From Streptococcus suis (GTDB taxonomy: Bacteria > Bacillota > Bacilli > Lactobacillales > Streptococcaceae), in NCBI RefSeq assembly GCF_002960445.1, contig NZ_POJD01000107.1, positions 1 through 64,000 of the forward strand: a DNA stretch of 64,000 bases. The letters run 5' to 3'. Each line of letters starts with the position of its first letter. Positions within the stretch are counted from its first letter, which is position 1. Positions 5,814 through 10,605 of the stretch are shown here, one piece after another. The position numbers and the translations under genes were made by a program. The notes under the pieces were generated by a model. It made no database searches. It was not told the DNA's origin and saw nothing but the letters and a program-made list of their open reading frames with translations.

Positions 5814-6575
5814 GTGATGCCACTCTTAGATGTACAACACGTTCAAAAGATTTACAGTTCTCGCTTTAAGGCGAGTCAGGTCGAGGCCTTGAAGGATATT
5901 CACTTTACTGTGGAAGAGGGTGAATATGTCGCCATTATGGGAGAATCAGGTTCTGGTAAGTCCACCTTGCTCAATATTTTGGCAACCCTTGATAAGCCAA
6001 CGCAGGGCAAGGTCTTGCTTAACGGATTGGATACCCAAGCTATCAAGAGCAAGGAAGCGGCAGCCTTTCGTCGGGAGAAATTGGGCTTTGTCTTCCAAGA
6101 TTTCAATCTCTTGGATACTCTTTCTGTCAAGGATAATGTGCTTTTGCCTCTGGTTTTGTCTCGCTATCCGATTGATGAGATGAACAAGCGACTCGTTCAT
6201 ACGCTTAATAGCCTGGGAATTGCGACCTTGCAAGACAAAATGCCCTACGAGATTTCAGGCGGTCAGCAGCAACGGGTTGCGGTGGCACGTGCGATTATCA
6301 CCCAGCCAGAAATCCTCTTAGCGGATGAGCCGACAGGGGCTCTAGATTCCAAGTCCTCTGCAACCTTGCTGGATATCTTTGAGCAGATAAACCAGCAGGG
6401 GCAGACCATTCTGATGGTGACCCACTCAACTGCAGCGGCCAGTCGTGCCAAACGAGTACTCTTCATCAAAGACGGTATTCTATACAATCAAATCTACCGT
6501 GGCGAGCGGACTAGTCAGGAGATGTATCAGCTGATTTCAGATACCTTGACACTGATGGCGAATCGAGGTGAGTAG
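5814..6575 (+). CDS. BceA-like ABC transporter ATPase
   Basis: A 253-residue MacB/LolD-type ATPase. Walker A is GESGSGKST, the signature is SGGQQQRVA, Walker B is ILLADEP followed by TGALD, and the H-loop is TH. The ATP drives a permease that, in this family, frees cell-wall lipid intermediates from peptide antibiotics such as bacitracin or lantibiotics. The ribosome binding site AAAGGAGG sits ahead of a tandem GTGATG; the start chosen here is the upstream codon, and ATG 5817 would fit equally well. The permease gene follows directly. Confidence 0.88.
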   Translation: MMPLLDVQHVQKIYSSRFKASQVEALKDIHFTVEEGEYVAIMGESGSGKSTLLNILATLDKPTQGKVLLNGLDTQAIKSKEAAAFRREKLGFVFQDFNLLDTLSVKDNVLLPLVLSRYPIDEMNKRLVHTLNSLGIATLQDKMPYEISGGQQQRVAVARAIITQPEILLADEPTGALDSKSSATLLDIFEQINQQGQTILMVTHSTAAASRAKRVLFIKDGILYNQIYRGERTSQEMYQLISDTLTLMANRGE

Positions 6576-6576
6576 T

Positions 6577-8589
6577 ATGTTTGGACTAACTGTTCGATTG
6601 GCTCTGACCAATCTCAAAAAGAACCGCAGGCTCTATTTTCCCTATGCCCTAATGACTATAGTTTCAACAGCCATTGCCTATATTTTTGCATCGCTTGCCT
6701 TTCATCCTGATTTAGGTCAGGTCAAGGGAGCCGATGGGGTAACCATGGTATTGGGCTTCGGTATGATTGTGGTCATGTTGGCGGTTGCCATCATGGTCTT
6801 CTATGCCAATAGTTTTGTCATGAAGCAGCGGTCAAAAGAGTTCGGTGTTTACAGTATTCTAGGCTTGGAGAAAAAACACCTCCTCCTGATGACTTTTCTG
6901 GAAAATCTAGTTTTTGCAGCCAGTAGTATTTTGACAGGCTTGTTGCTGGGCTTGGCTCTAGATAAACTCTTCTATGCCCTCTTGCTCAAGGTCATGCAGA
7001 TGCCTGTTGTCCTAGCTTCAACTTTCCAGTTGAAAAGTCTGGTCACTGTACTTATCTATCTCTTTGGGATTTTCGCTTTGGTTAGCCTCTTTAATATTGG
7101 GAAATTGGGATTAACAGACTCTCTCAAACTGGTTCAGGGCAAGAAGCGAGGGGATAAGAAATCAGGCTCCCTCTGGCTACAGACCCTCTTAGCTATTATT
7201 TTACTGGGGGCAGGCTATACCATTGCCCAGCTAGTGACCAATCCCTTTCAGGCGGTTCCGAGTTTCTTTGGAGCGACTCTTCTGGTTATCTTTGGGACCT
7301 ACCTGCTCTTCCACGCAGGTGTTATCAGTCTCTTAAACTGGCTAAAGAACCGTCAGACCTATTACTACAAGCCAGAGAATTTTATTTCTGTGTCTAACTT
7401 GATTTTCCGTATGCGAAAAAATGCTCTGGGCCTTGCGACCATTACTATCCTCTCCAGTATGTTCTTGGTGACCATGGTTGGAGGCCTCAATATTTACATC
7501 GGTGGCAAGGATTACATTGCTAACCAGAATCCAAATGATTATTCGATTGATGTTGGAATGCAGCCAACCGCTTCAAAAGAACAAACGGAGAAGTGGGAGG
7601 AGTGGGCGGAAGCTATCTTAGAAGAGACAGATATTCCTGTTGAAAGTAAGGTAGTCTATCCTTATCAGCAAGCCTATTTTTCTGAGGTGACAAACCAGCA
7701 AATAAAATTTTTGACGGATGAAGAAGCTGCTGGTATGGATTTCTCTGACCGATTGGGGATCGGTTTTGTCCTTAATCAAGCCAGCTATGAAAAGATGACG
7801 GGAGAAAAACTCCAGTTGGCATCTGACCAAGTGGCAATTTTTAGTAAGGGAGTCCAGTATCAAGCTGGTCAAACCCTTACCTTTGATGAAAAGGAAATGG
7901 AAGTTGTCCAAGTCTTGCCCAAGAATGTGACTTTAGGACATCTACCAGACCATGGTTCCTTCCTTCTCAGCCAGTATCTGGTCATTGTTGTTCAAGACTT
8001 GACAATATTTGAAAATCAAGCCGAAAATCGCTATTATATGGGCTTTGAAAGCAGTCTATCAGAAGAAGAGCAGATAGATAGCCATGACGCCTTTTTATCA
8101 GGTCGTTTTGAAAGTGAGCTTTGGGAGTCCAATATATTACAGAATGCAACGAACGCCATCAGTTTCGCCTATCGTGCCTATGCCATGCGTGGTTTCTTCA
8201 GTTTTGCAGGCTCACTTTTCTTCATCGGCCTCTTGCTATCACTCATCTTTTTGATGGCGGTGGTGCTGGTAATTTACTTCAAACAGATTTCAGAAGGCTA
8301 CGAAGACAGAGATCGCTTCGTCATTATGACCAAGGTTGGTCTGGATGAGGATCAGACCAGACAGTCCATTCGCAAGCAATTGCTGACCGTCTTTTTCCTA
8401 CCTATCGTACTTGCCTTTGTCCATCTAGCCTTTGCCTACAAGATGCTCTCGTCTATCTTGTTGTCTATCGGCGTGGTCAATGCAGGGCTGATGCTGCAAG
8501 TAACGGTAGGAATCTGTGGTGGCTATCTCCTCCTCTACCTAGTGGTCTATGCCATCACGACACGATCTTACAAACAAATTATTTCCTAA
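6577..8589 (+). CDS. BceB-like ABC transporter permease
   Basis: A permease of about 670 residues with the FtsX-like layout: about ten membrane helices and one large extracellular domain (roughly residues 310-530) between helices 7 and 8. In Bce systems that domain contacts the antibiotic-lipid complex and signals to the kinase. An upstream GTG at 6568 is in frame, but GAGGTGA at 6565-6571 is a near-perfect ribosome binding site placed 5 bases before ATG 6577, so I prefer the latter. The ATPase stop (6573-6575) falls between them. A strong terminator follows at once. Confidence 0.87.
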   Translation: MFGLTVRLALTNLKKNRRLYFPYALMTIVSTAIAYIFASLAFHPDLGQVKGADGVTMVLGFGMIVVMLAVAIMVFYANSFVMKQRSKEFGVYSILGLEKKHLLLMTFLENLVFAASSILTGLLLGLALDKLFYALLLKVMQMPVVLASTFQLKSLVTVLIYLFGIFALVSLFNIGKLGLTDSLKLVQGKKRGDKKSGSLWLQTLLAIILLGAGYTIAQLVTNPFQAVPSFFGATLLVIFGTYLLFHAGVISLLNWLKNRQTYYYKPENFISVSNLIFRMRKNALGLATITILSSMFLVTMVGGLNIYIGGKDYIANQNPNDYSIDVGMQPTASKEQTEKWEEWAEAILEETDIPVESKVVYPYQQAYFSEVTNQQIKFLTDEEAAGMDFSDRLGIGFVLNQASYEKMTGEKLQLASDQVAIFSKGVQYQAGQTLTFDEKEMEVVQVLPKNVTLGHLPDHGSFLLSQYLVIVVQDLTIFENQAENRYYMGFESSLSEEEQIDSHDAFLSGRFESELWESNILQNATNAISFAYRAYAMRGFFSFAGSLFFIGLLLSLIFLMAVVLVIYFKQISEGYEDRDRFVIMTKVGLDEDQTRQSIRKQLLTVFFLPIVLAFVHLAFAYKMLSSILLSIGVVNAGLMLQVTVGICGGYLLLYLVVYAITTRSYKQIIS

Positions 8590-8611
8590 ACTTGGGGCAA
8601 CCCAAGTTTTT
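8588..8611 (+). terminator. Intrinsic terminator after the Bce operon
   Basis: AAACTTGGG and CCCAAGTTT form a perfect 9-bp stem closed by a GCAA tetraloop and followed by more Ts. The stem starts inside the permease stop region. Confidence 0.85.
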
Positions 8612-8875
8612 GGGAGTGGGAAAGAACTTGACTAGTAAAAAGAGTTCGTCAACAAGTCCTTATTTCCAGTTGTTGAGCTGAAACAGTCTATCTCCAGACT
8701 GTTTCACTCCCACCCCCGCACAGCTCAAAAGGTTCAGTGAACCTTTTGAGGTTGGAAATAGAGCGAACTTTGTTCGCAACAGTCGTAATGGTCAGATTTG
8801 GAGTGTAAGACACGAACAAATCTGCCAATCAACCACTGCGGTGAGATGTTGACACTAACTTTGAGTAGTAGTGTT
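8611..8875. repeat. Block of consecutive inverted repeats
   Basis: About 260 gene-free bases are nearly filled with fold-back elements. TGGGAGTG (8611-8618) pairs with CACTCCCA (8705-8712) and encloses two more stems: CAACAA/TTGTTG, and AAACAGTCT with AGACTGTTT. Then come AAAGGTTC/GAACCTTT, GCGAAC-TTT-GTTCGC and CAGATTTG/CAAATCTG. The block ends with an ACACTA/TAGTGT hairpin and a T-run. It resembles an interspersed intergenic repeat cluster. No protein-coding signal was seen. Confidence 0.6.
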
Positions 8876-8897
8876 GATTTTTTTTACTCATTTTCCA

Positions 8898-8918
8898 CTA
8901 TTATGCTTTACATACTAG
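8898..8918. promoter_or_regulatory. Candidate PadR operator, copy 1
   Basis: A 21-base imperfect palindrome starting CTATTATG and ending CATACTAG. It has the same length and end sequences as copies 2 and 3, and it overlaps the -35 box of the PadR operon promoter. Confidence 0.55.
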
Positions 8919-8935
8919 TCAGCTTGCGTTATACT
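8907..8935 (+). promoter_or_regulatory. Promoter of the PadR operon
   Basis: TTTACA (8907-8912) and TATACT (8930-8935) with a 17-base spacer form a near-consensus sigma-A promoter. The transcription start would be near 8942. Operator copy 1 covers the -35 box, and copy 2 starts just after the transcription start. Confidence 0.75.
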
Positions 8936-8947
8936 ATAGATACAAAG

Positions 8948-8968
8948 CTAATAGGTAAAACAAACTAG
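8948..8968. promoter_or_regulatory. Candidate PadR operator, copy 2
   Basis: A 21-base element, CTAATAGGTA then AACAAACTAG around a central A. It shares both end sequences with copy 3, which lies 60 bases downstream, and sits at about +6 of the promoter. Confidence 0.6.
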
Positions 8969-9007
8969 TGATAGAAGACAAAGAAAATCACTTTTATTTT
9001 TATTAAA

Positions 9008-9028
9008 CTAGTTGGTATTACAAACTAG
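9008..9028. promoter_or_regulatory. Candidate PadR operator, copy 3
   Basis: The best of the three palindromes: CTAGTTGGTA and TACAAACTAG around a central T, with one mismatch between the arms. It lies just ahead of the ribosome binding site of the first gene in the operon. Confidence 0.65.
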
Positions 9029-9041
9029 ATAGGGAGGCAGT

Positions 9042-9206
9042 ATGAAACTGGATAAGAAAAGTCCGGAAAATTGGAAACTAGCAGGCATCACGCTTGTGAC
9101 TGCTATTATAACTGGTTGGACTTTGGATTCTATTTTGATCTTAGGTATCCTGTTAGGATCAGGCCTATTATTTGGATTTTTTACAGATGACGAGGAGGGC
9201 TTATGA
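9042..9206 (+). CDS. Small membrane protein heading the PadR operon
   Basis: A 54-residue open frame with a good ribosome binding site (AGGGAGG at about 9031). A charged N-terminus (KLDKKSPENWK) is followed by hydrophobic segments at about 13-30 and 33-48, the second glycine-rich, and an acidic tail (TDDEEG). Its stop overlaps the padR start (ATGA), which supports real translation and coupling. The family is not recognised; the shape suggests a short membrane accessory of the membrane protein encoded later in the operon. Confidence 0.65.
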   Translation: MKLDKKSPENWKLAGITLVTAIITGWTLDSILILGILLGSGLLFGFFTDDEEGL

Positions 9207-9520
9207 AAGAAACCCAAATGCTCAAAGGTGTCCTAGACGGCTGTGTCTTGCAGGTCATTGCCCGACAGGAAATCTATGGTTATGAGTTGGTTCAGGAGTT
9301 GAGAAAACAGGGCTTTGAAAACATGGTCGGAGGAACAGTCTATCCTCTGCTCCAGAAGTTAGAAAAAAATGGCTTAATTTTCAGCCAAAACAAGCCCTCA
9401 CCAGACGGACCAGACAGGAAGTATTTTTATTTAACAGACCAAGGGCAGAGCTACTTAAACGATTTCTGGGTCCAATGGGGAGAACTCGTCGCAAAAGTGG
9501 AGAAAGTGAAAGGAGAATAA
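9203..9520 (+). CDS. PadR-family transcriptional repressor
   Basis: A 105-residue winged-helix protein. It contains the family motifs YGYELVQELRKQGF and GTVYPLLQKLEKNGLI and a wing ending GPDRKYFYLTDQG, then a short C-terminal dimerisation helix. Short PadR-s2 proteins of this type commonly repress their own operon and a neighbouring membrane or efflux gene and respond to a drug or membrane stress. Three copies of a 21-base palindrome cover the operon promoter and leader, so autoregulation is likely. It overlaps the small ORF upstream and is one base from the next gene. Confidence 0.88.
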   Translation: MKETQMLKGVLDGCVLQVIARQEIYGYELVQELRKQGFENMVGGTVYPLLQKLEKNGLIFSQNKPSPDGPDRKYFYLTDQGQSYLNDFWVQWGELVAKVEKVKGE

Positions 9521-9521
9521 G

Positions 9522-10316
9522 ATGAGCAAACAAATGGAATACCGCAAGCAGATTGAAGTGATTGAAAGCCAGCTGACCAAGGAAAACAAGGAATACATGG
9601 GCCGTATCAATGGCTACATGATGATTGCCTCTGTCTTTCACAGGCAGGAAGAAGCAGTGACTGCCCAGCTCTTTAGCATCTACCAAGACGTACTTGAAGC
9701 TCAAAAAGACGGGCTTTCGGCGGAGGATTTTCTGGGCAAAGACAGCAAGCAAATGGCAGACGACCTCCTCAGCTACCTCCCTCCGATTGGTTTCATAGAA
9801 GTCGCAAACCTGAGTGGCCTCATGCTCATCATCTACCTCGGCAGCCAATGGCTGATGGATTTTGCAGGGACAGGCACCATTTCGCTAAACTGGCTGGGCT
9901 TGGTGTGTGACACGGCTCTCAGTTTCCTCCTGCCAGCAGGGATTTTCCTCATTATTCGCGGTCTGATTTACCAGACCAGCAAAATCAAGGTTTGGGCAAG
10001 TTTTCTCTGCATCCCCCTTCTTTTTCTCCTGATTTGTGGGCTTCGTCTTTGGGCAATCCCCAAGGAACCTGACCTGGTTCTGACTGGCTGGGGGCTTGCA
10101 GTACCACTTACCGTTCTCGGTTTAGCTCTGCTATTTTTCCAAAAGGAAAAGTTGGTCCGCTATGTCTTTATGCCTAGTTATCTCTTTATGATTGTTGGCG
10201 GTGTGGTGAATATGGTCATGACTGTCCCAGTTTGGCTCAATCTGGTTTTGCTCATTCTGCCTGCTATGGCCTTTTGGATTGGAAGTGCGGTTTTGTTGGT
10301 GAGGAAACCGAAATAG
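9522..10316 (+). CDS. PadR-operon membrane protein (DUF1048/DUF1129-like)
   Basis: A 264-residue protein. The first 90 or so residues are soluble and helical and resemble the DUF1048/DUF1129 helical domain often found next to PadR regulators. After that come about six membrane helices (roughly 90-113, 125-147, 152-172, 180-200, 209-235, 238-258). It starts one base after padR with its own ribosome binding site. A role in sensing or countering membrane stress under PadR control is inference; no catalytic motif is visible. Confidence 0.65.
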   Translation: MSKQMEYRKQIEVIESQLTKENKEYMGRINGYMMIASVFHRQEEAVTAQLFSIYQDVLEAQKDGLSAEDFLGKDSKQMADDLLSYLPPIGFIEVANLSGLMLIIYLGSQWLMDFAGTGTISLNWLGLVCDTALSFLLPAGIFLIIRGLIYQTSKIKVWASFLCIPLLFLLICGLRLWAIPKEPDLVLTGWGLAVPLTVLGLALLFFQKEKLVRYVFMPSYLFMIVGGVVNMVMTVPVWLNLVLLILPAMAFWIGSAVLLVRKPK

Positions 10317-10368: not shown

Positions 10369-10605
10369 ATGACATTTGAAGAGATTTTACCAGGCTTGAA
10401 GGCCAAGAAAAAGTACGTTCGCACAGGCTGGGGCGGGGCGGAGAACTACGTCCAGCTCTTTGACACCATCGAAGTCCACGGGCAAAAGCTGGAGGCGACG
10501 CCCTATTTCCTCATCAACGTGACCGGCGAGGGTGAGGGCTTCTCCATGTGGAGCCCGACCCCCTGCGACGTCCTTGCGACCGACTGGGTAGAAGTCCATG
10601 ACTAA
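10369..10605 (+). CDS. DUF2829 protein, Tad2-like
   Basis: A 78-residue protein matching DUF2829 in outline: an N-terminal helix and KYVRTGW strand, central strands, and the C-terminal signature WSPTPCDVLATDWVEV. In phages this fold includes Tad2, which blocks Thoeris defence by sequestering the cyclic ADP-ribose signal; chromosomal members are common and mostly unstudied. The ATG at 10369 is chosen because AAGGGAG ends 6 bases before it; an upstream in-frame TTG (10339) has no such site. The second half is GC-rich compared with its neighbours. It overlaps the next gene by 8 bases. Confidence 0.72.
   Translation: MTFEEILPGLKAKKKYVRTGWGGAENYVQLFDTIEVHGQKLEATPYFLINVTGEGEGFSMWSPTPCDVLATDWVEVHD

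Follow-up and report, generated by a model that had tools for sequence, protein, structure and literature searches.

Three conserved 21-bp sites as probable PadR operators on the promoter of a PadR/HAAS-like membrane-protein operon in Streptococcus suis

The 64,000-nucleotide stretch of Streptococcus suis contig NZ_POJD01000107.1 analysed here (the window) contains an operon encoding a small PadR-family regulator and a membrane protein with a putative HAAS-type N-terminus, and three related sites of 21 base pairs (bp) overlie its promoter. These sites are very probably the operators of the operon's own PadR, dimers of which would occlude the -35 box and the start region and thus autorepress the operon. 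A sequence-only reading of the window had proposed PadR autorepression, and the observation that the sites track PadR across 197 Streptococcus genomes while covering the -35 and start region lends this proposal strong support at the level of sequence. The genomes compared show directly where the sites lie on the promoter, that they are conserved and that they go with PadR of the window type; that PadR binds them, and that its binding would repress, we infer by analogy with related regulators.

The three sites and their promoter

Site 1 (CTATTATGCTTTACATACTAG, 8898..8918), site 2 (CTAATAGGTAAAACAAACTAG, 8948..8968) and site 3 (CTAGTTGGTATTACAAACTAG, 9008..9028), all on the forward strand as are the other operon features given below, were found where the sequence-only reading had placed them: site 1 covers the -35 box, site 2 falls at about +7 in the early transcript, and site 3 lies in the leader, directly 5' of the Shine-Dalgarno sequence of the first gene. 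Scored with a matrix trained on 175 sites (taken only from loci with a PadR less than 74% identical to that of the window), they reach 29.0, 24.7 and 29.4 bits, respectively, versus -0.1 bits for the next best position anywhere in the window and 13.5 bits for the best position in 20 Markov-randomised 64-kb sequences, although the absolute scores are inflated because related species contributed near copies to the training set. The elements had also been described as palindromes. This description holds for the symmetric consensus of the sites (CTAGTATGTANTACATACTAG, i.e. TAGT-N11-ACTA at positions 2-5 and 17-20 of the 21-mer) and for site 3, where 9/10 mirrored pairs match by eye, but much less so for site 1 (7/10) and site 2 (6/10); only site 3 is a near-perfect palindrome when taken singly, and the symmetry is a property of the shared consensus. 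The consensus also includes ATGT-N3-ACAT, with a gap far shorter than that of the ATGT-N8-10-ACAT operator of PadR-s1 and LmrR.

A promoter scan returned the -35 hexamer TTTACA (8907..8912, inside site 1) and the -10 hexamer TATACT (8930..8935) separated by a 17-bp spacer, so placed that transcription would start near 8942; site 2 begins 12 bp 3' of the -10 hexamer. Since shuffled versions of the scanned 500-bp stretch yield 1.1 such promoters on average, the promoter call rests on conservation and not on the scan. In a set of 110 distinct promoters (at least two sites, PadR at least 50% identical, several of them closely related), the first site contains TTTACA in 108; of those 108, 106 have a -35/-10 spacer of 17 bp, and the second site begins -2 to +13 bp 3' of the -10 hexamer. 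Within the genus, a site holding TTTACA is present at 70/72 loci.

Conservation of the sites with PadR

Our search of 197 Streptococcus genomes identified an orthologous PadR in 72 (71 at E ≤1e-36, plus G137, where the gene is split over two frames), with four further PadRs of ~40% identity kept apart. Matrix search within 420 bp upstream of the orthologous padR genes returned two sites at 55 loci and three at 17, hence at least two at 72/72 (the matrix being partly trained on such loci), and no site matches when the same regions were reversed or complemented. The site-1 pattern occurs in 74/197 genomes, comprising 71/72 with an orthologue and 3/125 others (reversed control, 0/197), and the site-2/3 pattern in 69/197, comprising 68/72 with an orthologue and a single one of the 125 others, G057 (one control match). 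The only orthologue-bearing genome missed by the site-1 pattern is G173 (locus L051), where the left arm of site 1 is gone and sites 2 and 3 remain. At L051 and L018 this arm is replaced by a hairpin-like sequence, with TTTACA retained. In G137 (locus L117, G137:C11:102922-103232) padR matches as two pieces in different frames, and two of the sites persist upstream.

The few sites in genomes lacking an orthologue all stand at scars where padR has apparently been lost. In G195 (L119), genes for Tad2-like, short-chain dehydrogenase (SDR) and ASCH proteins, which in the window come after padR and the membrane-protein gene, are preceded by two sites (2350-2406), and neither padR nor the membrane-protein gene was found in 5 kb; in G152 (L118) a single site (2194) lies 5' of an aldo-keto reductase gene, which in L121 comes after padR and the membrane-protein gene; in G057 (L120) a site (1594) precedes a small open reading frame (ORF), with no padR within 4 kb. 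These sites are best read as remnants of the loss of padR and the membrane-protein gene in three species. As a separate observation, one-mismatch sites lie 3' of the aldo-keto reductase gene, between convergent genes, at L121:3464 and L122:3276.

The sequence-only reading had named conservation in orthologous promoters as its test. Two of the elements pass this test genus-wide and in close relatives beyond; the third is mainly a feature of the S. suis group. It was detected at 18/72 genus loci (17 by the matrix, plus L051), nearly all of the S. suis group, and is missing from the other 54. Over 21 promoters its distance from site 2 is 57-62 bp. On a 44-row PadR tree, whose bootstrap is unsettled and whose label leaves out L051 (site 3 kept, half of site 1 lost), the third site clusters: the three-site state requires 6 changes as compared to a mean of 13.8 upon shuffling (0/500 as low). 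L047 and L053, which an earlier PadR tree places in its S. suis branch, are without site 3, and at L054 a promoter of the S. suis type goes with a PadR placed elsewhere. Across an alignment of 18 S. suis-group promoters, the invariant positions amount to 16/21, 21/21 and 17/21 for sites 1, 2 and 3, to 15/29 and 20/39 for the spacers, and to 4/40 for the left flank; mean identity is 0.952 for each of sites 1 and 3, 1.000 for site 2, 0.950 for the second spacer and 0.71-0.72 for the flanks. A link between site 3 and the small ORF at the head of the operon was considered and rejected, since the ORF is absent from L013 and L052 despite their three sites, and a small ORF accompanies just two sites at L059.

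An order-level search returned a PadR match (E up to 1e-15) in 148/295 genomes, 27 in the genus, and 46 loci from 45 genomes outside the genus, mostly from the top of the list, were examined. Two sites were found there at 18/20 loci with a PadR at least 57% identical to that of the window, at 8/14 in the 50-57% range and at 2/12 below 50%, and by eye the flanks of these sites look unrelated. Enterococcus asini (L020) has the pair too. The four ~40% identical PadRs of the genus are preceded by diverged, lower-scoring pairs with the same 21-bp layout, 29-31 bp apart, whose second sites score 6.7-9.0 bits. Site and regulator thus appear to drift together.

Elsewhere in the window's own genome the motif search gave no excess over control, with 8 further strand matches at 7 places at up to two mismatches and also 8 for the reversed pattern. 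A wider regulon in this genome was rejected on that count. The places L065-L070 were inspected and left as background, one of them (L066) being just upstream of a gene for an Rce1-like CAAX protease.

Probable autorepression and the alternatives

As we picture it, a PadR dimer on site 1 would cover the -35 box and block binding of RNA polymerase, a second dimer on site 2, at the transcript start, would block initiation or clearance, and in the S. suis group site 3 at the end of the leader would add a further block. The outcome would be negative autoregulation of a hydrophobic peptide of 54 amino acids (in this lineage), PadR and the HAAS-type membrane protein, the latter presumably relieving repression after a membrane signal. 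A broader picture, which we put forward as possible and on balance doubtful, is that the promoter-straddling operator pair is a fixed part of a PadR-HAAS membrane-stress switch across lactic acid bacteria, where the HAAS protein pulls PadR off both operators, and that the S. suis group tightened this switch with a third operator before a lineage-specific 54-residue membrane peptide that may tune the sensor.

Several observations weigh against autorepression through these sites. Site 2 of the window lineage is symmetric at only six of ten pairs. The tie of the sites to PadR fades below 50% identity, and even at 57% and above two of the 20 loci outside the genus have just one called site, one of these exceptions being L153, for which the upstream sequence is limited to 217 bp. 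Away from the padR promoter there are six one-mismatch matches (G045, G065, G086, G097, G137 and G171); the surroundings of those in G065, G097 and G137 show no obvious promoter role. The half-lost site 1 of L051 and the missing site 3 of L047 and L053 indicate that none of the sites is essential by itself. Among S. suis-group promoters the second spacer is about as conserved as sites 1 and 3, so that only site 2 and the flanks stand out and the contrast is moderate. Finally, the HAAS assignment rests on sub-cut-off Pfam scores for the window protein and a weak fold match (see below).

Of the alternatives, the one retaining most credit, unlikely as it is, is that the three sites form a looping or phase-dependent cooperative array, as the sequence-only reading had suggested from spacings close to whole helical turns. 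In the case of LmrR of Lactococcus lactis, likewise a PadR of subfamily 2 (PadR-s2), multiple dimers occupy the regulator's own promoter, and the Hill coefficient of 2.43 was interpreted as a sign of cooperativity (PMC4534193); the distance between sites 1 and 2 is 50 or 51 bp at 64/70 genus loci with a full site 1. On the other hand, with 10.5 bp to the turn, the 50 and 60 bp of the window correspond to 4.76 and 5.71 turns, each roughly a quarter turn away from a whole number. Over 109 promoters the site 1-site 2 spacing takes values of 36, 39, 42 and 45-51 bp by lineage, with 45-46 and 50-51 bp about half a turn apart (an apparent 60 bp occurs once, at L018, where half of site 1 is lost), and the third site is absent from three quarters of the genus loci (54/72). 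As the spacing varies while the position on the promoter stays fixed, the constraint looks like promoter position and not helix face, and neither helical phasing nor looping finds support.

There is a small chance that a transcription factor other than the window-type PadR binds the sites. If such a factor were encoded at another locus, genomes that lack this PadR would be expected to carry sites as well, whereas the 3/125 and 1/125 matches found in such genomes are all at the apparent loss scars described above; moreover, diverged PadRs have diverged sites. A shade less probable than another factor is activation of the operon by PadR from these sites. Some PadR relatives do activate, e.g. AphA (PMC10886379), but the position of TTTACA inside the first site and of the second site next to the -10 hexamer in 108/110 promoters favours occlusion, and the -35/-10 spacer is already 17 bp.

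Lower still we rank the reading of the sites as RNA hairpins in the leader, serving as an attenuator or an RNA stability element. Sites 2 and 3 are self-complementary and, given a start near 8942, would be transcribed, but site 1 sits on the -35 box and would not be, and an Rfam search of the 8500-9300 region came up empty at E up to 1. The paired bases of a site show no covariation. Across 89 distinct site sequences, complementarity does not notably exceed the prediction from the two columns at any of the ten mirrored pairs (pair 4/18, 32 versus 37.6 expected; pair 10/12, 28 versus 47.0; the sole excess, 62 versus 61.6), a pattern to be expected of half-sites that a protein dimer contacts independently and not of paired RNA arms. 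Chance or mobile-repeat similarity can practically be discarded, since the window scores are far above those of randomised sequence and conservation refutes it, and since the repeat just upstream (8613-8875), which might have suggested it, ends as a query before site 1, with L013 keeping all three sites without that stretch (by eye).

The operon, related systems and neighbouring genes

Downstream of the Shine-Dalgarno sequence GGGAGG (9032..9037, by eye), the operon begins with a small ORF (9042..9206) that overlaps the start of padR and encodes the 54-residue hydrophobic peptide with an acidic C-terminus; searches of Pfam and NCBIfam returned nothing for it at E up to 0.1. L059 and L120 have a different small hydrophobic ORF in its place. 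The padR gene (9203..9520), the candidate repressor of its own operon, encodes 105 residues, the size of PadR subfamily 2, and matches Pfam PF03551 (E 5.8e-23, 81 bits against a cut-off of 27). The protein aligns over residues 3-103 with 5zqh, the solved structure closest to it in sequence, and over residues 1-103 with 3hhh, and has no long C-terminal domain; its nearest named relatives are 14 S. suis records of 76-96% identity. We consider 5zqh to be probably the S. pneumoniae PadR of Lee et al. 2020, a study that reportedly deals with this protein and may already describe the pneumococcal operator. In the open-licence literature searched, which leaves the most relevant paper outside and was available in part, we found no published operator for a PadR of the window type.

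The third gene (9522..10316) encodes a 264-residue membrane protein with a putative HAAS-type N-terminus (DUF1129/DUF1048-like), a candidate sensor partner of PadR. Its match to DUF1129 (E 3.3e-4) is below the Pfam cut-off; among 24 aligned orthologues, DUF1129 is matched in 13 and DUF1048 in 6 at E up to 0.01, and the motif D-x3-A-x6-A-x4-G-x7-D is invariant or nearly so. A predicted model (pLDDT 78.6, pTM 0.59) has helices at its start. In a fold search nothing matched this HAAS-like model at E up to 0.001; 2hh6, which we take to be a DUF1048 protein, came up weakly (E 3.9, TM by target 0.57). Counting padR loci only, an ORF of more than 150 residues with the HAAS-type motif comes directly after padR at 29/30 of the genus loci L035-L064. 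The exception, L052, has three sites and padR, yet no HAAS-type ORF directly downstream.

In kind this is an ordinary autorepressed PadR-s2 operon, to which our analysis adds the operator, evidence of how far it is conserved within and outside the genus, and the additional site in the S. suis group. Among the closest parallels is cdPadR1 of Clostridioides difficile, a PadR-s2 protein that binds TACT(N11-12)AGTA repeats, two of them in its own promoter, in gel shift, and for which autoregulation was suggested (PMC5050560). TACT-N11-AGTA has the same geometry as TAGT-N11-ACTA and differs in the third half-site base; the C. difficile promoter has two sites versus three in the window, and its genome has ~200 other motif matches, whereas here there are none above control. 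LmrR, too, is small, and it occupies its own promoter in the form of several dimers, as we propose for the window PadR; its operator has ATGT and ACAT 10 nucleotides apart, it controls a multidrug ABC transporter, and no HAAS gene is mentioned in the available portions of the sources (PMC4534193, PMC5050560). LltR of Listeria monocytogenes represses its own gene about 150-fold; its operon likewise has PadR followed by a membrane protein, there the multi-spanning DUF1700 protein Lmo0600, and continues with a DUF4097 gene where the window has a Tad2-like ORF; the available portions of that source give no operator sequence (PMC6624303). A HAAS-PadR dyad, in which PadR neighbours a membrane protein whose N-terminus is of HAAS type, as is probable here, was proposed as an alternative to two-component signalling (PMC11237479); operators do not feature in the available portions, and their layout is our addition to it. 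A regulon reconstruction in lactic acid bacteria lists a PadR regulon, with no motif in the portions available (PMC3616900), and an S. suis padR has been knocked out (PMC10886379), which from the available text could not be matched to the padR of the window.

The present sites provide a precise, testable operator for a PadR common to many lactic acid bacteria. With them the proposed HAAS-PadR dyad becomes measurable by a simple reporter, with natural variants in spacing and site number on offer.

Upstream of the operon are genes for an ABC transporter ATPase and an FtsX-type permease (5814-8589), presumably a BceAB-like pair. Between these and site 1 lies a 263-bp modular repeat with hairpins (8613-8875), which has 55 matches in its own genome, itself included; six other copies cover 205-257 of its bases at 85-95% identity. 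By comparison with the BOX-type elements reported for S. suis (PMC3049150), the repeat fits that type. Pfam search assigned the genes 3' of the operon to Tad2-like, SDR and ASCH proteins. The first of these, a chromosomal ORF (10369-10605) similar to Thoeris anti-defense 2 (PF11195, 3.6e-19), is strongly conserved in the streptococci that share it, with 100% identity at L119, 92% at L063 and 90% at L059.
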